A DNA stretch of 64,000 bases from Desulfovibrio legallii (GTDB lineage Bacteria; Desulfobacterota; Desulfovibrionia; Desulfovibrionales; Desulfovibrionaceae), in the NCBI RefSeq assembly GCF_004309735.1, contig NZ_SIXC01000001.1, forward strand, positions 62,723-126,722, written 5' to 3'. Position numbers and translations under genes: made by a program. Position 1 is the stretch's first letter. Each line of letters begins with the position of its first letter. Under the pieces are notes generated by a model. That model had not been told where the DNA came from. It ran no database searches and saw nothing but the letters and a program-made list of their open reading frames with translations. This document shows, in pieces, positions 5,955-56,883 of this stretch.

Positions 5955-6156
5955 GTTTGAAAAATGCGGCGTAAATGCTCCGGCAACGGCGCAGGGCGAC
6001 AAAGCCGCAAACGCAGCCCGGCAGCAGCCACGTCAGGCGGATATAACTGCAGAAAGTTGCCCCTTGCCTCCCTGCCTGAAGAACCTGACTGTTCGGATCA
6101 GAAATAAAAATTGCGCAGAGTGCGGGGGAAAAGGGCTAAAAAACTTCCTCCTCCGC

Positions 6157-6480
6157 TGAGAATAGGTATTCTCAAAGGTTACGGCAGCCCGTTCCGGCGC
6201 TGTCTTCAGCCGCAGCTAGAGCAATTAGCGAATGAAATGAGCTAATTGCTCTGCAAGGATTTTTTTGAAAATCCTTGCCACGAAATGCGAGAAGGCAGGC
6301 TTTTGCCTGCCGTAAGCGAGCATTTCAAGTGTTAAATGCTCTAGCCGGCGTCTTGGCCCGTAACTTCCTTCGTCGTAACGGGCCAAGCTCCTGCGTCACA
6401 GCGGCTGAAGTTACGCTTGCGTCTCCGTGGCGGGCGGTTGCGTACGTAACCGCGAGGCTTTTCAAAATTGCAATGCCCTA
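6157..6480 (+). repeat. Dispersed palindromic repeat, copy A (long form, with nested insert)
   Basis: This is a member of the repeat family described in the findings. It has the TGAGAATA/TATTCTCA palindrome (6157-6174), the CGTTCCGGCGCT block, the CGGGCGGTTGCGTACG block and the CCCTA end. The outer left end is decayed. Like copy B it has the extra arm of about 70 bp, and that arm is interrupted by a 129-bp nested element (6216-6344). The right end overlaps the stop codon of the Lon-like gene (6478-6480). It fills most of the 584-bp gap between two convergent genes. Confidence 0.8.
6216..6344 (+). repeat. Nested 129-bp element with TAGAGCA inverted ends
   Basis: The left end reads CTAGAGCAATTA, and the right end, read inward on the other strand, reads CTAGAGCATTTA. 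Inside are three hairpins in a row: ATTAGC/GCTAAT, a perfect 11-bp GCAAGGATTTT stem with a 4-base loop, and GGCAGGC-TTTT-GCCTGCC flanked by GAAATGC/GCATTTC. It has no coding capacity. It interrupts the long-form arm of copy A, which is uninterrupted in copy B. Confidence 0.7.
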
Positions 6481-8901
6481 ACTCCGGCGCGGCCGACGGA
6501 AGGCGTTCTGGGCGTAGTCGCCCAGTTGCTCCAGACGGCGGTCTACCTTGTCGTAAAGGCTGTTGCGGGTAAAGCCGCCGTTTTTGAGGCGACGGCCCAC
6601 GGACAGACCTGTAAGCAGGGTGAGGGCCTCCTCTATGCTGCGCACGGTATAGATGGCAAAACGGCTCTGGTCTACGGCTGCCAACACGTCTGGGGCCAGC
6701 ATGAGGTGGTCGGCATTATCGTGGGGGATGATCACGCCCTGCGTGCCGGTGAGGCCATGCCGGGCGCAGACTTTGTAAAAGCCCTCGATCTTGCTGGTGA
6801 CGCCGCCCACGGCCAGGATTTGTCCGGTGTGGTTCACCGCGCCGGTAAAGGCCAGGTCCAGGCGCACGGGCACTTCGGCCAGCGCCGAGAGCAGGGCGGC
6901 CAGCTCTGCGCCGGAGGCGCTGTCGCCTTCAATGCCCGCATAGCTCTGGTCAAAGTAGAGCGAGGCCGAAAGCACCAGCGGCTTTTTGCGGGCGAATTGG
7001 TCCGTGAGATAGCTTTTGAGAATCATCATGGCCTTGGTGTGGATGGGGCCGCCCAATTCGGCCTCGCGTTCCAGGTCCATAATGCCCTCATGCCCCACGC
7101 CTACAGAGCAGGAAATGCGGTGCGGCAGGCCGAACTCAAAATCGCCGTGCCAAGTGACGGAAAGCCCGTTGACCTGCCCCACGGCGCTGCCCGAAGTGCG
7201 CACCTTGATCATCTCGCGGTCGTAGTCCTCCATGAAGGCTTCTTCCACCAGATTGGCCCTGTAGGTGCGGGCGGCGTAGGCTTCTTCCAGCACGGCCGCG
7301 TCCACCATGGGTGCGCCGCGCAGGCGGGCCAGCGCTGCAGCTTCAATCATGATTTCGCGCAAGAGCGGAAAGCGCAGGGAAAGCCGACGCTGATCCTCAC
7401 AGAGGTGCGAACCCAGGTCGATAAGCCAAGCCAGGGCCGTGCGGTCAAAGGGCGGCAGGTCATCCTCTGTGATCATGACGGCCACATGGATGAGGTAGGC
7501 GCGGACATTGGCGGCCGTGCGCTCCGTGACTTCGGCCATGTGGGCCTTGATGCGGAAGAGCTTGGGGAAGCGCTCGTCGTTGAGCAGCAGGGTTTCGTAA
7601 AGTTCGTCGTCGCCGATGAGCAGCACCTTGAGGGTCAGGGGCACGGGGTCCGGCACAATGCCCTTGGTGCGGATGGCCGTATCCGGATTTTCGCCCGCAT
7701 CTTCAATGCGGGCGGCATTGGCGCGCAGGGCGCGCAGCAGTCCTTCCCAGGCCGTGGGGTGCTGCAGCAGATCCTCCACATGCAGGACCAGAAAACCGCC
7801 GTTGGCCCGGTGCAGGCTGCCCGCCCGGATGAGAGTGAAATCTGTGACCAGCGCGCCCATTTCCGACTCGCGTTCCACGCAACCCAGCAGGTTCACGGCA
7901 GTGGGGTGGTCCTCCACCACCACAGGCGCACCCGTAAGGGCGCTGTTGTCCACCAACAGGTTGGCCGCATAGCGGTAAAGCACGTCGTCGGCCTGGCTGT
8001 GGTCGCCTGGGCCGGCCGCGGCCTCGCGCTGCAGAAATGCTTCGGGGTTTTTGAGCATGTCCGCGCGCAGGGCGTCGAAATAGGCCTCCAGGCCGGGAAC
8101 CTGGGCGCAGATCTTGAGAAAACGCTGGCGCAGGGGATTCAGCAAAGCATCCAGCACCTGGCCCAAGGCCTCGCGCTCCAGGTCACGTTCGCCGTCCTGC
8201 AGGGTTTCCTCGGCCCGGCTCAGCTGCCGCATAAAACCGGACATAGCCTGGACCAGAGTGTCGCCCCGGCTTTTGAGCTTGAGCCGAACCGTGCTGTCCA
8301 GGCGGTCAAACTCCTCTTCGCTCAGACGCTTGCCTTCCACCAGGGGGTAGAGGGTCAGGCCGCCGCTGTCGTCCATGTCCAGGTTAAAGCCCTTGTCCAC
8401 GGCCACAGAATTCATCTTGCGCAACAGCCCCAGGCGGGCGTTCTGGAAGGTGTCCACCAGCCGGGCGCGGCGTTTGACGTATGCGCCGGCTTCAAAACGG
8501 CGGGGCAGTTCCTGTTCGATCTGCTCCACCAGGTTTTTAAGGCTTTGCTTGAACTTTATACCCTGTCCGGCAGGGAGGGGCAGCAGGGTGGGGCGGTCCG
8601 GATCGGCAAAATTGTGCACATAGACCAGATCCGGCGGGATGGGCGCTTTGCGGGCCTGCGGCCGCAGATAGGTGAGCAGCATATGGCTGCGCCCCAGGTC
8701 CGGATCGCCGGAAACATAAACGTTGTAGCCCTGGGCCTTGATCTGCAGGGCCAGGTCCAGGGCCTGCATGGCGCGGGGCTGAAAAGGATTGCGCCGCCCG
8801 TTGCGCGGCTGCGGAATCTGGCGGCTGTCTTCCCAGGGCACGCGGGCGGGATCAAAGGTGGCGTGCAGCCGGGAGGTGGGGAGGGGAGTAATGGTGGGCA
8901 T
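6478..8901 (-). CDS. Lon-like (LonB/AAA_32 family) ATP-dependent protease
   Basis: The 807-residue protein belongs to the Lon-related S16 proteases that carry an AAA domain without the classical Lon N-domain. A P-loop-like VSGDPDLGRSH lies near residue 63, with Arg where Lys is usual, and a Walker-B-like GGFLVLHVEDLL near 368. A long helical insert follows (about 120-290). The C-terminal protease domain has the predicted dyad Ser661 (EGDSASGAE) and Lys704 (VTSKIEG). It should degrade proteins in the cytoplasm. It is the last gene of the gmhA-fmdB-hemC run, 14 bp after hemC. Its TAG stop is the first triplet of repeat copy A. Confidence 0.88.
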   Translation of the reverse strand: MPTITPLPTSRLHATFDPARVPWEDSRQIPQPRNGRRNPFQPRAMQALDLALQIKAQGYNVYVSGDPDLGRSHMLLTYLRPQARKAPIPPDLVYVHNFADPDRPTLLPLPAGQGIKFKQSLKNLVEQIEQELPRRFEAGAYVKRRARLVDTFQNARLGLLRKMNSVAVDKGFNLDMDDSGGLTLYPLVEGKRLSEEEFDRLDSTVRLKLKSRGDTLVQAMSGFMRQLSRAEETLQDGERDLEREALGQVLDALLNPLRQRFLKICAQVPGLEAYFDALRADMLKNPEAFLQREAAAGPGDHSQADDVLYRYAANLLVDNSALTGAPVVVEDHPTAVNLLGCVERESEMGALVTDFTLIRAGSLHRANGGFLVLHVEDLLQHPTAWEGLLRALRANAARIEDAGENPDTAIRTKGIVPDPVPLTLKVLLIGDDELYETLLLNDERFPKLFRIKAHMAEVTERTAANVRAYLIHVAVMITEDDLPPFDRTALAWLIDLGSHLCEDQRRLSLRFPLLREIMIEAAALARLRGAPMVDAAVLEEAYAARTYRANLVEEAFMEDYDREMIKVRTSGSAVGQVNGLSVTWHGDFEFGLPHRISCSVGVGHEGIMDLEREAELGGPIHTKAMMILKSYLTDQFARKKPLVLSASLYFDQSYAGIEGDSASGAELAALLSALAEVPVRLDLAFTGAVNHTGQILAVGGVTSKIEGFYKVCARHGLTGTQGVIIPHDNADHLMLAPDVLAAVDQSRFAIYTVRSIEEALTLLTGLSVGRRLKNGGFTRNSLYDKVDRRLEQLGDYAQNAFRRPRRS

Positions 8902-13534: not shown

Positions 13535-14971
13535 ATGGCCGCGTATGAAGTCGTCATCGGCCTGGAAGTGCACGTGCAACTGGCCACGGCCTCCAAGCTG
13601 TTCTGTTCCTGCCCCACCACCTTTGGGCAGCCCGCCAACACCAACGTCTGCGAAGTCTGCGCCGGCATGCCTGGGGCCCTGCCCGTGCCCAACCGCCAGG
13701 CAGTGCACTACGCTGCCCTGGTGGGCCTGGCCACCAACTGCACGGTGCACCGGCGTTCCGTTTTCGCCCGGAAAAATTATTTTTATCCGGATTTGCCCGC
13801 CGGCTATCAGATTTCGCAGTTTGAGCTGCCCATTTGCGAGCAGGGTTATCTGGATATTGAGGCCGACGGCCGGGTGAGCCGCATCGGCATCACCCGCATC
13901 CACATGGAGAACGACGCGGGCAAGAACATCCACGCCCAGGGCGAAAACCTGAGCTATGTGGACTTGAACCGCGCAGGCACGCCCCTGGTGGAAATCGTTT
14001 CGGAGCCGGACATGCGTTCCGCGGCCCAGGCTGTGGCCTATCTCAAGACGCTCTACAGTATTGTCACTTATCTGGGCGTGTGCGACGGCAATATGGAAGA
14101 GGGCAGCTTTCGTTGCGACGCCAACGTTTCGCTGCGGCCCGTGGGGCAGACGGCCTTTGGCACGCGCACGGAGCTCAAGAACCTCAACTCTTTCCGCAAC
14201 GTGCAACGGGCCATTGAGTACGAGATCGCCCGCCAGCAGGACGTGCTGGACGAAGGCGGCAGCGTAGTGCAGGAAACGCGCCTCTACGACGCGGCCAAAA
14301 ACAGCACGGCCTCCATGCGCAGCAAGGAGGAAGCCCACGACTACCGTTATTTTCCGGACCCGGACATTTTGCCCGTGGAAATTGCGGCAGAAGACCTGGA
14401 AGCCTGGCGCGCCTCCCTGCCGGAGCTGCCCCAGGCCCGCGCCCGGCGTTTTGCGGCCATGACCGGCCTGGCTGAGGCGGAAGTGGAGGTGCTGGTGCAG
14501 GGGCGCGGTCTGGCGGACTTTTTCGAGGCCGCAGCACAGAAGGCCGAGCCCCGCAAAGTGGCCAACTTTATTCTCGGCCCGTTGCTGCGGGAATGCCACG
14601 CCAATGACCGCAACCCCGCAGATGCCGCAGACTGGGCCATGAAACCGGAGGCCCTGGCCCAACTGGTCACGCTGGTGGACAAGGGCGTCATCAGCGCCAA
14701 GATCGCCAACGACATCTTCGGTGATTTGTTCCGTAGCGGGGCCATGCCTGAAGCCTATGTGCGGGAAAAGGGCCTGGGCCAGATTTCGGATACGGGCGCG
14801 CTGGAAGCCGCCGTGGACACGGTGCTGGCCGAGAATCCCGACGAGGTGGCCGCCTTCAGGGGCGGCAAGACCAAGCTCATGAGTTTTTTTGTGGGGCAGG
14901 TTATGCGCGCTACCAGGGGCAAGGCCAATCCCGCCCTGGTCAATCAGCTTCTGCATCAGAAGCTGCAATAG
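13535..14971 (+). CDS. gatB: Asp/Glu-tRNA amidotransferase subunit B
   Basis: GatB is the kinase and transfer subunit of GatCAB, which converts Glu-tRNA(Gln) and Asp-tRNA(Asn) to the amidated forms. The 478 residues have the usual start [15 protein letters not shown], the zinc-type cysteines FCSCPT...[28 protein letters not shown], and a C-terminal YqeY-like tail domain. The ATG follows GAGGAG and AAGG. No gatA or gatC is in the window. The TAG stop is also the first triplet of repeat copy B. Confidence 0.97.
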
Positions 14972-15186
14972 GGCATTCTCCGTTGCAATGCCCTGGCGGT
15001 TCGTAAGCAGACGCCCGTCGTGGAGACGCAAGCGCAGCTTCAGCCGTTGCGGCGCAGGCGCTTGGCCCGTTACGACAAAGGAAGTTACAGATGAAGACAG
15101 CAGCGCTATGTATTTGTGCGGTTAAGCGCCGGAACGAGCGTGCCATTACCTCTGAGAATACCTATTTGCAAAGATAATCTGCTCCA
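14969..15186 (-). repeat. Dispersed palindromic repeat, copy B (long form)
   Basis: Read on the minus strand it runs from GGAGCAGATTATC to AATGCCCTA and matches the family consensus closely: GTTCCGGCGCTTAACCGC, AAATACATAGCGCT, and GCCAGGGCATT near the end. Between AGCGCT and GCGCTTGCG it carries an extra arm of about 70 bp (15034-15104) that copies C, D and E lack and copy A shares. The outer TAG of the GCCCTA end is the gatB stop codon. From 15187 to 15275 nothing was recognised. Confidence 0.85.
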
Positions 15187-37128: not shown

Positions 37129-37188
37129 CCTGACGGCGCGGCAGCGCGCGGTTGTGGGTTGCCAGAGGCCGCGTCCGTCAGGTTTTTT
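37129..37188 (+). terminator. Intrinsic terminator or attenuator between ftsI and murE
   Basis: The arm 37129-37142 (CCTGACGGCGCGGC) pairs with 37168-37182 (GCCGCGTCCGTCAGG) over 14 bp with one bulged base. The loop is 25 bases, and TTTTTT follows at 37183-37188. This is a complete intrinsic terminator in the middle of the dcw cluster. Confidence 0.75.
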
Positions 37189-37224
37189 CAGGGCAATTCC
37201 GTTTTGCAGCTGCCCTGACGGATC

Positions 37225-37325
37225 TGCGCAAGCGAGGTCTGCCACGGAGGCGGGCCACGCAGTTAAGCGCCGGAGTGGCTGCGTAAAATTTTGAGAATGC
37301 GCATTCTCAAAAGTATAGTGCTGTT
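37225..37325 (-). repeat. Dispersed palindromic repeat, copy F (decayed)
   Basis: On the minus strand the 24-base perfect palindrome at 37289-37312 (TTTTGAGAATGC and its complement) is followed by ACTCCGGCGCTTAACTGCG, matching the family blocks. The outer CCCTA part is scrambled or missing. It lies between the terminator behind ftsI and the murE start. Confidence 0.6.
37291..37319 (+). promoter_or_regulatory. Putative promoter of murE within repeat copy F
   Basis: TTGAGA at 37291-37296 and TATAGT at 37314-37319, 17 bp apart, each match the sigma-70 consensus at five of six bases. The -35 box is part of the repeat palindrome. The leader to murE would be about 68 bases. Confidence 0.6.
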
Positions 37326-49620: not shown

Positions 49621-50949
49621 ATGGCTCAATCAATCGTTGACGATATTGACACCACGCTGGCCAGCAACGCAAAAATCAAGGTCATCGGCGTGGGCGGCGG
49701 CGGCGGCAATGCTGTGCAGAACATGATCGCTTCTGGCTTGCGCGGCGTGCAGTTCGTCTGCGCTAATACGGACCTGCAGGCCCTGGCCAAAAACGGCGCT
49801 TCGGTCAAGGTGCAGCTGGGCGAAAAACTTACTAAGGGCCTGGGGGCTGGGGCCAACCCCGAAATAGGCCGCGAGGCCGCAGTGGAAAGCGTCAACGCCG
49901 TTCGTGAAGCCATCGGGGACGCGGACATGGTTTTTGTTACCGCCGGCATGGGGGGCGGCACCGGCACGGGCGCGGCCCCGGTGGTGGCCCAGGCCGCCAA
50001 GGAACTGGGCGCGCTCACCGTGGGCGTGGTCACCAAGCCCTTCAGCTTTGAAGGCGCCAAACGCAAGCGCGCGGCCGAGGCCGGCCTGGAGGAGTTCAAG
50101 CAGCATGTGGACTGCCTGATCACCATCCCCAACGACCGCCTGCTGGCCTTTGCCCCCAAAAAGGCCCCCTTCTCCGAGATGCTGCAGAAGGCCAATGACG
50201 TGCTCTATTACGCCGTTAAGGGCATTTCGGACGTCATTGTGGGCGATGGCCTCATTAACCTGGATTTTGCCGACGTGCGCACCACCATGGCCGAATCCGG
50301 ACTGGCCCTCATGGGCACGGGCATTGCCTCCGGCGAAAACCGCGCTCGCGAAGCCGCCCAGCGCGCCATTATGAGCCCCTTGCTGGAGGACGTTTCGCTG
50401 GAAAGCGCCAAAGCCGTGCTCTACAACATCACTGCGCCCACAGATATCACCGCTGATGAAATCGCCGAAATCGGCGAGATTATCGGTGAAGCCACGCCCG
50501 AAGAAGCCAATATCATTTTTGGTGTGGTCTTTGACGACAACATCGGCGACGAAATCCGCCTGACGGTCATCGCCACGGGCATCGAATCGGTGCAGGCCGT
50601 GGAAAGCGTGCAGCCCCAGGCTGCCGCGACGGTGACCAACTTCCGCAAGCCTGGTCGGGACGCCGTGGTGGCCGATTCGCGTCGCATGGGCTCTCGCGGC
50701 GCAGCGCGGAACCAGCGCGGCGGTGAGCTGGACGAACCCCTGCTGGGCGACGAGCCTGCCCGCGCCTCACGACGGGCTCAGGCCGGCCTTTGGACCAACG
50801 AAAAAGATATAGAAGGGCCGTCCTATATGCGCAAGCGTCAAGCCTTGGGGCAGTCGCTGCACAGCGCGCACAACCCTGGGCAGCAAGACTTTACCTATGA
50901 TGAAGACGACTTTGAGATTCCCACCTTTATCCGGACACAGGCGGACTAG
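49621..50949 (+). CDS. ftsZ: Cell division tubulin homologue FtsZ
   Basis: This GTPase forms the division ring. The 442 residues have the tubulin motif GGGTGTG at 111-117, followed by [13 protein letters not shown], and the NLDFADVRT synergy loop region. An Arg/Ala-rich linker (about 335-425) is longer than usual and ends in the conserved tail peptide FEIPTFIR, which binds FtsA. The ATG follows AGGAGAGG. It closes the dcw cluster. The TAG stop is the first triplet of repeat copy C. Confidence 0.98.
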
Positions 50950-51095
50950 AGCAGATTACCTTTGAGAATATGTATTCTCAAAGGTGAAAACACGCTCGTT
51001 CCGGCGCTTAACCGCGCAAATAAATTGCGCTTGCGCCTCCACGGCGGGCGGTTGCTTACGCAACCACCAGGGCATTTCAAAAGTTAAATGCCCTA
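50947..51095 (+). repeat. Dispersed palindromic repeat, copy C (149 bp, complete)
   Basis: This is a clean short-form copy. TAGAGCAGATTACC leads into the palindrome TTTGAGAATATGTATTCTCAAA with ACC/GGT outside, then CGCTCGTTCCGGCGCTTAAC, GCGCTTGCGCCTCCACGG, CGGGCGGTTGCTTACG, and AGGGCATTT-8 bases-AAATGCCCT at the right end. Its first three bases are the ftsZ stop codon. Confidence 0.85.
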
Positions 51096-51116
51096 AGTCT
51101 GCTCATGAATAAGGCC

Positions 51117-51140
51117 CGGCGGCCGCGCTGGCGGCCGCCG
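51117..51140. repeat. GC-rich perfect hairpin downstream of ftsZ
   Basis: CGGCGGCCGC and GCGGCCGCCG form a 10-bp perfect stem with loop GCTG. No T run follows, so intrinsic termination is doubtful. Between here and 51360 no gene or motif was recognised. Confidence 0.5.
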
Positions 51141-51361
51141 AGACAAAAGCCCGCGAGCCTTGGGGTGGGGTTGCGGTGGGCAGGGCCGTCTGGATTGGCG
51201 GGTTTGCGCACGGGAATGTCAGAAAAAGTCTTTTTGTTCGCTGCGTTGCACCGCTTTTGACGGTGGCTCCTTGGCCTTCAGGGATGCGGTGGGCGTTCGG
51301 CTGTGGACGCACCTTTAGCCGCAATTCTGCAGCGGTGCCAATATATACAAATTTTACCACT

Positions 51362-51421
51362 TTTCAGGGCTCGCCTCTTCGGCCCTGAAATGCCCGCCGG
51401 GAGGCCCATTGGGGGCCTCCC
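51362..51421. repeat. Two tandem hairpins in the ftsZ-hypE gap
   Basis: TTTCAGGGC/GCCCTGAAA (51362-51390) and GGGAGGCCC/GGGCCTCCC (51399-51421) lie side by side. CTTTTCAGGGC from the first recurs as a direct repeat at 51443-51453. They are untranslated and the function is unknown. Confidence 0.5.
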
Positions 51422-51424
51422 AGT

Positions 51425-51447
51425 GCGGGGCGTTACGCTCCGCTTTT
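51425..51447 (+). terminator. Intrinsic terminator in the ftsZ-hypE gap
   Basis: GCGGGGCG-TTA-CGCTCCGC (8 bp, one G-T pair) is followed by TTTT at 51444-51447. It reads in the direction of ftsZ, although 476 bp beyond its stop. It could end a longer ftsZ transcript or an unrecognised RNA. Confidence 0.55.
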
Positions 51448-51558
51448 CAGGGCAAGCGTTCCCCCTGCGGATCGCTATGTTCCTTTCTTTGAGATAGCCC
51501 ATAAAACCTGCAGGCTGGCCGCCCAAGGTGACAGGTGCGGTTCGCAGGGTAAGGGGAT

Positions 51559-52563
51559 TCAGCAGATGCGGGGCAGTTGCGCGCCTTCCAGCATGCCCAA
51601 CAGGCGGCGGCCCCCGATGCGGGTGGTCAGGGTCACCTGGGCTTTGCCTGCAGTCACCGTACCTACGCGAGCGGCCTCCAGCCCATAGGGCGAGCGGCGC
51701 ATGGCCGCCAGGGCGGTCTCGGCGCGGTCTTCCGGCAAAATGCAGATACATTTGCCTTCATTGGCCAGATAGAGCGGGTCAAGCCCCAGGAAGGAGCAGC
51801 CGCCGCGCACGCTTTCGTGAACAGGGATGCTGGCTTCATCCAGCTCGATGCCCACCTGGGATTGTTCGGCGATTTCGTTGAGCGTAGTGGCCAGGCCGCC
51901 GCGCGTAGGGTCGCGCAGCACATGCACCTGACCCGCCGCAGCAATGATGTCGGCGATCATATGATTGAGGGGGGCAGAATCTGACGCCACGTCGCTGAGA
52001 AAGGAGAGCCCTTCACGGCTGCCCATGACGGTCAGGCCGTGGTCGCCCAGCGCGCCGCTCACCAGTACGGCGTCGCCGGGACGGGCATTGTGCCCCGAAG
52101 GCGGCGGGGCGGCAAAGACCGTGCCCACTCCTGTAGTATTAATAAATATTTTGTCGCACGCGCCGCGCGGCACCACCTTGGTGTCTCCGGTGACGATGGA
52201 CACGCCCGCAGCCCTGGCCGCCGTGCCCATGTCCGCTGCTACGCGCTCCAGCACGTCCAGAGGCAGGCCTTCCTCCAGAATGAAGCCGCAGCTCAGGTAG
52301 CGGGGTCGCGCGCCCAGCATGGACACGTCGTTAACCGTGCCGTGCACGGCCAGACTGCCGATGCTGCCGCCGGGGAAGAAGAGCGGCGTCACGGTATAGG
52401 TATCGGTGCTCATGGCCAGCGGGCCGTCCAGATCCTCCAGCAGGGCGGCGTCGTCCAGCCGTTCCAGCAGGGGGTTGGCGAAATGCCGCAGAAAACACTG
52501 CGCCACCAGGCGCTGCGAGGCGCGTCCGCCGCTGCCCGCATCCAGAAGAAGACAGGTCTCCAT
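51559..52563 (-). CDS. hypE: Hydrogenase maturation carbamoyl dehydratase HypE
   Basis: HypE receives a carbamoyl group from HypF on its C-terminal Cys and dehydrates it to the cyanide ligand of the NiFe site. The 334 residues begin with LLLDAGSGGRASQRL and include DTYTVTPLFFPGGSIG, the GDTKVVPRG motif and LRDPTRGGLATTLNEIA. They end in PRIC, the functional C-terminal cysteine. Its ATG overlaps the hypD stop by one base (TAATG). No hydrogenase structural genes are in the window. Confidence 0.96.
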   Translation of the reverse strand: METCLLLDAGSGGRASQRLVAQCFLRHFANPLLERLDDAALLEDLDGPLAMSTDTYTVTPLFFPGGSIGSLAVHGTVNDVSMLGARPRYLSCGFILEEGLPLDVLERVAADMGTAARAAGVSIVTGDTKVVPRGACDKIFINTTGVGTVFAAPPPSGHNARPGDAVLVSGALGDHGLTVMGSREGLSFLSDVASDSAPLNHMIADIIAAAGQVHVLRDPTRGGLATTLNEIAEQSQVGIELDEASIPVHESVRGGCSFLGLDPLYLANEGKCICILPEDRAETALAAMRRSPYGLEAARVGTVTAGKAQVTLTTRIGGRRLLGMLEGAQLPRIC

Positions 52564-53923: not shown

Positions 53924-54979
53924 TTACGGCAGTGGGGCCAGATTATTGAGCCCTGCCTCCACCGGCAGGCCGCACATGAGATTGGCGTTGGCCAGGGCCT
54001 GGCCGGAAGCGCCGCGGCAGAGGTTGTCAATGGCCGAAAGAATGATCAGCCGTCCGGTGCGCGGGTCCACCACCAGGCCCAGGTCGCAGAACATGCTGCC
54101 GCGCACATAGCGCGTTTCCGGCAGCGCCCCCTTGGGCAGGATGCGGACCCAGGGACTATGGCTCCAGGTTTCGGTATAGACTGCGCGCACGGCGTCCAGA
54201 TCCATACGCGGGTCTTTGAGCCGGGTATAGATGGTAGCGAGGATGCCCCTGTTGGTGGGCAGCAGGTGGGTATTGAAGGAAAGGCGTACGTCCTGTCCGG
54301 CCAGAAGGGAGATTTCCTGCTCGATTTCCGGCGTATGCCGGTGGGTGGGCAGGCCGTAGGCACGGAAGTTGTCCGAAACTTCGGAAAACAGCGTGGGCAC
54401 AGCGGCCTTGCGGCCCGCGCCCGTGGCTCCGGATTTGGCGTCCACCACCAGGTCGTCGCAGTGGACGAGGTTGTTTTTGACCGCAGCATAGAGCCCCAGA
54501 ATTGTGGCCGTGGGGTAGCAGCCGGGATTGGCCACCAGGCTGGTGCGGGCAATGTCCGCGCCGTAGAGTTCAGGCAGGCCGTAGACGGCCTTGTGCAGCA
54601 GGTCGGTACAGACGTGTTCGCGCTTGTACCAGGCTGCATAGGTGGCCGGGTCGCGCAGGCGGAAGTCGGCGGAAAGATCCACCACCTTTACGCCGGCGCG
54701 CAACAGGGGCTCAGCCATATCCATGGCTGTGCCGGCGGGCACGGCCAGGAAGACCACCTCGCAGAGCTCCGCCGCTTTTTGTGGGTCAAAGGTGCTGATG
54801 ACCACATCCGCGCCGGGCAGATGTTCCAGAAATGGGTAGTAGGATCCCAGACGACGGCCTGCCTCGGCCCGGGAACAGGCCATGCCCAGGCGCATGGACG
54901 GATGCCCCGCCAGCAGGCGCGCCAGCTCCATGCCCGCATACCCGGTAATGCCCACCAAACCCACGGAAATCACTTTCAT
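53924..54979 (-). CDS. argC: N-acetyl-gamma-glutamyl-phosphate reductase
   Basis: ArgC reduces N-acetylglutamyl phosphate to the semialdehyde with NADPH in arginine synthesis. The 351 residues begin VGLVGITGYAGMELARLLAGHP. The catalytic-Cys motif is NPGCYPTATILGL; other motifs are HRHTPEIEQE and the C-terminal GASGQALANANLMCGL. No other arg gene is nearby. It is preceded by a terminator of the DUF1844 gene, so it needs its own promoter within 54980-55062, where none is obvious. Confidence 0.97.
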   Translation of the reverse strand: MKVISVGLVGITGYAGMELARLLAGHPSMRLGMACSRAEAGRRLGSYYPFLEHLPGADVVISTFDPQKAAELCEVVFLAVPAGTAMDMAEPLLRAGVKVVDLSADFRLRDPATYAAWYKREHVCTDLLHKAVYGLPELYGADIARTSLVANPGCYPTATILGLYAAVKNNLVHCDDLVVDAKSGATGAGRKAAVPTLFSEVSDNFRAYGLPTHRHTPEIEQEISLLAGQDVRLSFNTHLLPTNRGILATIYTRLKDPRMDLDAVRAVYTETWSHSPWVRILPKGALPETRYVRGSMFCDLGLVVDPRTGRLIILSAIDNLCRGASGQALANANLMCGLPVEAGLNNLAPLP

Positions 54980-55520: not shown

Positions 55521-55669
55521 TAGAGCAGACTACTTTTGAGAATAGGTATTCTCAACGGTTATGGCCCGCGCGTTCCGGCGTTTATCCGCGCAAAGACATC
55601 GCGCTTGCGTTTCCACGGCGGGCGTCTGCTCACGCAACCGCCAGGGCATTTCAAAGGTGTAATGCCCCA
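55521..55669 (+). repeat. Dispersed palindromic repeat, copy D (149 bp)
   Basis: It runs from TAGAGCAGACTAC to AATGCCCCA and has exactly the length of copy C. It contains TTTTGAGAATAGG and TATTCTCAACGG (one arm slightly decayed), GCGCGTTCCGGCG, CATCGCGCTTGCG, CACGGCGGGCG and CGCCAGGGCATTTC. It lies between two minus-strand genes, 29 bp beyond the aminotransferase stop. Confidence 0.85.
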
Positions 55670-55698
55670 GCGGGTTTCCCCCAAGCTGCCGCCGGGGG

Positions 55699-56883
55699 TC
55701 AGCGGCATACGGGCGGCAGGGGCACGCCCGGTCCGTCCTTGAGGGCCGCGCGGTAGGCTGCCAGGGACTGTTCCAGATAGTCGCGCGCGCCGCTGAAGCC
55801 GCCTGTTTCCGCCAGGCTGCGGTTGAGGGCATAGAGCCCCGCCGCCACATCGGCCCAGTCCACCCAGCCCATGTGGCCGATGCGCACCATACGGCCCTTG
55901 TATTGGTCCTGCCCGCCGGCCATGCAGATGCCGAATTCCTCCTGCGCGCGGCGCAGCACAGCTCCGCCGTCCACGCCCGGAGGCAGCAGTACGCTGGTGA
56001 CACCCCAGGAGAAATGGCTTTTGGCAAAAAGCTCCAGCCCCATGACGCTGACGCCCGTGCGGGCCATCATGGTCAGGGCCCACTGTTTGGCGTAGAGGGC
56101 CTCCAGGCCGTTTTCCAGCAGCAGGGCCAGGCTTTCCTCCAGGGCCACCAGCAGGTTGATGGCAGGGGTGAACAGGGTTTGCCCCTGCTCCACCTTTGCT
56201 TTCTCTTTGGGCAGGTTGAAATAGAAACAGCCGGTGACGGTGGCGGCGGCCTTTTCCCAGCCGCGCGGAGAAAGAGCCAGCAGGGCCAGGCCAGGGGGCA
56301 GCAGCAGTCCTTTCTGTGAGCCCGTCACCAGGCAGTCGATGCCCCATTGATCCATGGGACAGGGGGCCAGGCCCACGGCCGAGATGCCGTCCACCAGCAG
56401 CAGGGCGGGGCTCTTACGGGTGACGGCGGCGATTTCGCGCACGGGATGGAGCACGCCCGTGGAGGTTTCGGAGTGCTGTACCAGCACGCCGACAATAGCC
56501 GGGTCTGCGGCCAAAGCGTCGGCCACGTCCTGCGGTTCCACAGCCTTGCCCCAGGGCACGCTGACCGTGACCACCTCCAGCCCGCGCGAGACGGCGATTT
56601 CACGCCAGCGCTGGCCGAACTTGCCTCCTTCCACCACCAGCACCTTTTCGCCGGGGGCAAACAGGTTGTACACGGCGGCGGTCATGGCGCCCGTGCCGGA
56701 AGAGGTCAGGGGCAGCACTGTCCCCGCAGTGCCGAAAAGGGTCCGCAAGCCTTCCTGCACACGTCCCATAATGGCCATAAATTCGCTTTTGCGGTGGTGG
56801 ATCATGTCCTTGGCCAGGGCAAGACGAACCCTTTCGGGCAGAGGCGTGGGGCCGGGGGTGAGCAGGCGAACTTTGTTCAACAT
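55699..56883 (-). CDS. Class V aminotransferase (serine/alanine--glyoxylate type)
   Basis: The 394-residue PLP enzyme resembles alanine-glyoxylate and serine-pyruvate aminotransferases. It starts LLTPGPTPLPERV, has the PLP-phosphate region TSSGTGAMTAA, DGISAVGLAPCPMD, and the PLP-binding lysine in VTGSQKGLLLPPG. The exact substrates cannot be fixed from sequence; roles in serine or glyoxylate metabolism are both possible. The ATG at 56883 follows AAGGA. The gap to the methyltransferase gene upstream is 16 bp, so it probably belongs to the same run. Confidence 0.87.
   Translation of the reverse strand: MLNKVRLLTPGPTPLPERVRLALAKDMIHHRKSEFMAIMGRVQEGLRTLFGTAGTVLPLTSSGTGAMTAAVYNLFAPGEKVLVVEGGKFGQRWREIAVSRGLEVVTVSVPWGKAVEPQDVADALAADPAIVGVLVQHSETSTGVLHPVREIAAVTRKSPALLLVDGISAVGLAPCPMDQWGIDCLVTGSQKGLLLPPGLALLALSPRGWEKAAATVTGCFYFNLPKEKAKVEQGQTLFTPAINLLVALEESLALLLENGLEALYAKQWALTMMARTGVSVMGLELFAKSHFSWGVTSVLLPPGVDGGAVLRRAQEEFGICMAGGQDQYKGRMVRIGHMGWVDWADVAAGLYALNRSLAETGGFSGARDYLEQSLAAYRAALKDGPGVPLPPVCR

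Follow-up and report, generated by a model that had tools for sequence, protein, structure and literature searches.

Copies of a repeat at gene ends

The window, which is the whole 64,000-nucleotide stretch of Desulfovibrio legallii DNA analysed here, carries six copies of a short, non-coding, high-copy repeat that we call family I, and three of its genes take their TAG stop codon from the end of a copy. Family I matches were found by nhmmer with a model built from 24 copies. The features referred to below are:

6478–8901, minus strand: gene for a Lon-like (LonB-type) protease (Pfam); stop TAG at 6480–6478, from copy A
6340–6481, plus strand: right part of copy A, a diverged long form; 39.5 bits
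6217–6343, plus strand: family II repeat inserted at a TA within copy A; 127 bp, TAGAGCA..TGCTCTA
13535–14971, plus strand: gatB (Pfam and NCBIfam); stop TAG at 14969–14971, from copy B
14968–15186, minus strand: copy B, long form with about 70 extra nt inside; 125 bits; its TAGGG end supplies the gatB stop
37188–37325, minus strand: sixth copy, degenerate; 42.5 bits
49621–50949, plus strand: ftsZ (Pfam and NCBIfam); stop TAG at 50947–50949, made of the target TA and the first G of copy C
50947–51096, plus strand: copy C; model match, 169 bits
Parts of copy C: TA 50947–50948, element proper 50949–51093, TA 51094–51095, then a host A; reconstructed target GAC-TAA
53727–53879, minus strand: copy D; the gene at 53924–54979 (minus strand) stops about 44 bp away
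55521–55670, plus strand: copy E; the gene at 55699–56883 (minus strand) stops about 29 bp away

The sequence and its open reading frames bear out the original prediction that the TAG stops of the Lon-like gene, gatB and ftsZ lie at a repeat end, and that copies D and E lie off a stop. The three coincidences stand, and the proportion given with them, three copies of five, becomes three of six with the degenerate copy, which had been missed. Beyond these six copies the model search of the window gave two weak matches, one of which is the palindrome of copy C reversed. Copy A is a composite, its family I-like left part (from about 6150 to 6216) being split from the right part by the family II repeat.

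Family I measures about 145 bp between two TAs and has the layout 5'-GAGCAG...GGGCATT(palindrome)AATGCCC-3'. The element proper begins at the G after the TA, and the TA is target; this corrects the earlier statement that the element ends begin with TAG. The two ends are unlike each other (TAGAGCAG and TAGGGCATT; the pair is also given as TAGAGCAG / TAGGGCAT), and by inspection TAGAGCA and TAGGGCA at the ends form a short imperfect inverted repeat. Several long-form copies like copy B (about 195–220 nt, with the additional 70 nt or so) are present in the same genome. Copy C had no match among phage and plasmid records. Two pattern searches were discarded: a pattern fits 32 stretches in viral contigs, which are likely to be chance matches to a short near-palindrome, and a 21-mer has five matches in genome contigs of unrelated taxa, also taken as chance in a set that may omit records near the window.

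Genome-wide coincidence of repeat ends with stop codons

We compared the genome of origin (G000, 2.675 Mb) with the closest relative in our comparison (G060); alignments longer than 1 kb between the two add up to some 206 kb, at about 86% identity. With 150 candidates scored in each genome, the model matched 141 times in G000, at least 150 times in G060 and 127 times in a third genome, G017. Used as a DNA query, copy C matched 8 of 25 genomes of the same genus (its own included) and none of 16 other genomes of the order. Identity between copies within one genome reaches at most 0.966 in G060 and 0.906 in G000, and going by the latter figure family I in G000 may have ceased to move.

Ends were counted in roughly one third of each genome (about 905 kb for G000, about 856 kb for G060), with genes called by a simple purpose-written codon-usage finder rather than a standard annotator. 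An end was usable if it belonged to a hit of at least 50 bits, was reached by the model and lay more than 150 bp from a sequence edge. The 199 distinct hits provided 265 usable ends, 174 of which have the stop of an incoming gene at between −400 and +120. At 50 of the 265 the stop and the end begin on the same base (offset 0): 8/51 left and 10/50 right ends in G000, and 13/85 left and 19/79 right ends in G060. Any other offset occurs at most five times in each genome-and-side class, and in the examined third of the two genomes the coincidence noticed in the window is far above chance. One of these other offsets, −125, was seen five times in G000; it corresponds to about one family II length, and may mean that a family II repeat separates the stop from family I there.

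The target is TA

Among ends of hits of 60 bits or more, 115 of 240 read TAG inward (68/124 left, 47/116 right). The base before the TA is variable, and where the TA is kept G follows it as a rule (68/79 left ends). TA is present on both sides of just 41 of the 110 both-ended family I copies; 38 of the remaining 69 show only TA, TG or CA, which we read as decay. The targets reconstructed from the 41 copies favour YTAR: CTAA/TTAG accounts for 14, TTAA for 9 and ATAG/CTAT for 6, and the same classes make up 6%, 5% and 12% of intergenic TAs respectively. IS5 duplicates a 4-bp YTAR, and we considered such a duplication for family I. It is rejected because the G that follows the TA at left ends contrasts with the right side, where the base is A at 63% and G at 9% of the 41 sites.

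For most of the 13 copies whose flanks were aligned with G060, the two genomes were too diverged, at about 86% identity, for the alignment to be of use. Four empty sites were recovered. In the first, a G060 copy (C2:9909-10057) sits at the stop (TTC-TAG) of a 1,644-nt gene, and the G000 orthologue, 88% identical over 190 bp, is without the element and reads ..GCC TAC AGC TTC TAG GTTTC.. with a single TAG. In the second, a copy (L151) interrupts ..TGTACC|TA|AGAGTACTATCC.., its left end now being TG, and a nearby uninterrupted stretch, 98.7% identical over 157 bp, reads ACC-TA-AGAG. The third is a copy (L166) with both ends now TG that interrupts ..CAGCT|TA|GCCCGTT..; five uninterrupted relatives, 76–83% identical, have CT-TA-GCCC. 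The fourth is a family II copy at a TAG stop in G000, where the orthologous G060 stretch without it reads TAA (84% identity across 243 bp; one base is inserted or deleted next to the TA, and the codon is read from the alignment). All four fit insertion at one TA that is later present on both sides, and the data do not distinguish a 2-bp duplication from an element that brings a TA of its own and inserts next to one in the host.

We also looked at the far side of copies at stops. Reading in the direction of the gene, a purine follows the far TA in 38 of 41 stop copies, as a TAA or TAG target would demand, and a pyrimidine in the other 3; among controls a purine is found in 113 of 144 (P 0.026); with intact TAs only, the figures are 22/25 and 48/67 (P 0.083). 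The controls are themselves purine-rich, and this test is therefore weak.

Proteins encoded upstream of the repeats are unchanged

An alternative explanation for the shared stop codons is that insertion or recombination replaced the gene end, with the element supplying a new C-terminus and stop, and the original prediction had raised this possibility. We therefore compared stop-fused genes with those homologues that had at least 70% identity and spanned half of the query or more. Such a homologue exists in the examined part of the other genome for 20 of the 50 stop-fused genes, and in 15 of these 20 family I is absent at the stop. The 15 element-free orthologues end in TAG (11), TAA (3) or TGA (1), and the single TGA compares with a share of 44% of stops overall (P 0.002). 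Two of them, both in G000, carry family II at the same stop. C-terminal length is within one residue in 13 of the 15; the other two differ by more and are what replacement would predict.

The three genes in the window behave similarly. FtsZ has the same C-terminal length in all 33 loci of relatives, with stops TAG in 26, TAA in 5 and TGA in 2; these loci come from 32 genomes (G070 twice), include G060, whose ftsZ stop likewise bears family I, and G071, which bears a repeat of another family (family III) at that stop, and leave out one truncated locus (L144). GatB agrees within one residue in 28 of 29 relatives (TAG 18, TAA 10, TGA 1), and the G060 orthologue, which is without the element, has the same last residue followed by TAG. 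For the Lon-like protein 22 of 29 relatives agree within one residue, and the stops are TGA in 20, G060 included, TAG in 5 and TAA in 4. TGA in so many relatives means that copy A would require a prior change from TGA to TAA or TAG, or some other history, and it is the poorest fit among the three. The last codon is also kept at the orthologous empty sites. Taken with the unchanged C-termini, this leads us to reject replacement of the gene end, to which we give almost no credence.

Two observations were made downstream of ftsZ. A palindromic motif, CAGGGCTCGCCTCTTCGGCCCTGAAATGCCC (window 51365–51395, plus strand), is found with three or fewer mismatches in 28 of 30 ftsZ loci, its own included, and the examined contigs of G000 and of G060 contain it once each. 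It has no Rfam match in the window, and from its sequence conservation it is a candidate conserved RNA or terminator. Synteny between G000 and G060 switches from contig C6 to C3 at about 113860–114280 of G000 C1 (window about 51140–51560), just downstream of the ftsZ element, which places a rearrangement (or assembly) breakpoint near the repeats.

Target preference and gap occupancy probably account for most stop hits

The stop codons TAA and TAG contain TA and are therefore legal targets, and because both element ends begin with G, insertion in either orientation restores TAG and leaves the protein unaffected. We compared the number of copies at stops with several null models. When all TAs in the genome are available and weighted by YTAR, 17% of copies are expected at stops and 41 of 113 (36%) are found there, a twofold excess. 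For a null in which each copy is confined to the gap that it occupies, seven copies without clear flanking genes were dropped, and among the remaining 106 there are 39 at stops, against 33.1 expected with YTAR weights taken from family I copies off stops (z 1.8) and 27.0 expected with uniform TA (z 3.7). The excess thus goes only when conditioning on the occupied gap is combined with YTAR weights. The corresponding numbers for family II are 12 of 35 observed, with 10.7 (weighted) or 7.9 (uniform) expected.

These comparisons bear on the possibility that stop codons or the 3' ends of genes are themselves what the transposition machinery seeks out, by cues such as translation termination, the end of transcription or a longer motif. 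The twofold excess and the per-gap residuals are in its favour, as is the presence of different families at the same stops (ftsZ, gatB and two others), but YTAR and gap occupancy together leave little residual, in family II as well, and there are copies at ordinary TAs between genes and within other repeats. We consider such recognition very unlikely. Preference for YTAR together with survival in gaps downstream of genes makes it unnecessary, with a weak extra preference being possible. Insertion at or into stop codons, as the original prediction had suggested, is accordingly correct as an outcome, since the empty sites hold a single TA, including that of a TAG or TAA stop, whereas targeting of stops as such is not needed.

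The gaps that family I occupies are unevenly distributed: convergent gaps hold 48 of 106 copies and make up 129 of all 763 gaps over 30 bp in the examined contigs, and for divergent gaps the figures are 5 of 106 and 130 of 763. This strong preference for convergent gaps, together with palindromes near both ends of the element, of which the right-hand one shows, at one pair, changes on both sides in 7 of 24 sequences, could indicate that the host keeps the repeats at gene ends as cassettes that provide a stop and a terminator or stabilise mRNA. Keeping clear of promoters and genes would by itself probably give the same distribution, however, and RNAalifold gives family I a covariation term of about 0, with any both-sided change in just 5 of 30 pairs. 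An Rfam scan of the window at gathering scores gave no match, and the 15 of 20 homologues that manage without family I at the stop also argue against such a role, which we regard as unlikely.

We conclude, with a probability of about 90%, that the stop hits are products of ordinary TA-targeted insertion, in which the TA of the host and the G at the element end together read TAG and the gene is unharmed. Insertion is at TA, with a preference for YTAR, and the encoded proteins are intact. In the mechanism that we propose, family I would behave as a MITE-like element that inserts at a TA within a preferred YTAR and has one TA on each side afterwards; with G at the start of both ends, insertion into TAA or TAG would rebuild TAG. 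Insertions at stops or downstream of genes would survive, those in coding sequence or promoters would probably be purged, and survival and target preference together would leave roughly every third copy on a stop. The transposase presumably acts in trans.

Other repeat families and genomes

Two further repeat families and two further genomes behave alike. Family II has no hit in the examined part of G060 and 37 in that of G000; 32 of its 35 both-ended copies have the form TA..TA, and 12 of the 35 have an end at a stop. In G017, where 32 loci of the 127 matches were looked at, family I lies at a stop in 10 of 28 both-ended copies. Family III, a 129-bp repeat with at least 27 near full-length copies in G071, sits at the ftsZ stop of that genome and has no match in G000, G060 or G017. 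Six of 12 sampled copies end a gene, the ftsZ query copy included; the query held one base beyond the right TA, and a right-end offset of 1 was therefore counted as 0.

The gatB stop of G071 bears a family II-like repeat. In this genome (loci L128 and L309) different TAGAGCA-ended repeats are thus placed exactly at the ftsZ and gatB stops, and represent independent hits on the same stops.

Search for a mobilising transposase

The searches recovered no transposase whose ends match those of the repeats. The IS630-type DDE_3 domain (PF13358) has no match in G000, G060, G017, G021 or G071, and nine in G002. The Y1 transposase domain (PF01797) has no match in G000, G060 or G017; elsewhere it has 2 in G021, in which family I is present, 13 in G071 and 4 in G002. 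The Y1 element of G071 was considered as a partner and rejected, as five aligned copies of it have other ends. By pairing left and right partial hits we recognised no autonomous copy with family I ends in the examined third. The pairs with 39–92 bp between them are long forms, a single pair spaced by 789 bp overlaps a further full copy, and those at 232–488 bp and 2–6 kb are mostly weak hits. Ten of 1227 genes have a near-copy in the same genome, none of them transposase-like by eye.

REP and BIME sequences, which are moved by RAYT (Y1) transposases, form more than 100 palindromic intergenic copies per genome with a TAG-containing end, and family I resembles them in all of these respects. It differs in having TA on both sides after insertion and in the variable base before TAG, where the RAYT system has a fixed GTAG beside the palindrome, and the genomes G000, G060 and G017 are without a Y1 gene.

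Discussion

Family I resembles the TA-ended MITEs of bacteria (RUP, Correia/NEMIS and ERIC-type), a known class that is described in a review as short, non-coding, high-copy and palindromic, with TA at both ends and target duplication (PMC2229807). The likeness is one of features, with sequence compared against phage and plasmid records and Rfam alone. In contrast to the RUP type, there is no IS630 (DDE_3) gene in G000, G060, G017 or G071, which are rich in family I or III.

The pneumococcal BOX repeats are a published precedent for stops encoded by a repeat: 36 of them supply the stop codon of the gene before them, with no strong sign that the gene was truncated, and the same study contrasts regions that tolerate insertion with upstream regulatory regions and sequences between cotranscribed genes (PMC3049150). 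BOX is modular, and that part of the study states no rule by which TA restores TAG (PMC3049150), whereas in family I the stop is the first triplet in either orientation. A Coxiella MITE located at the 3' end of a gene is described, for one protein in one strain, as extending the C-terminus (PMC5896051). Literature searches returned nothing on the repeats studied here or on the TA-plus-G rule.

One further suggestion is that the terminal G after TA at both ends of the three distinguishable families has been selected because it makes insertions at stops harmless in either orientation. We find this doubtful; if it were true, a stop codon would be a safe harbour that repairs itself, and ends of the form 'TA|G' would be an adaptation general to TA-targeting elements.

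The simple rule that a target TA and a terminal G make TAG explains a striking coincidence and corrects the idea that gene ends were replaced. It predicts that elements with ends starting with G or A can use stops, and that C or T would give read-through, which is testable across known MITE and IS630/mariner families. TA-targeting repeats can in this way pile up on the stops of genes such as ftsZ and gatB with the proteins unchanged.
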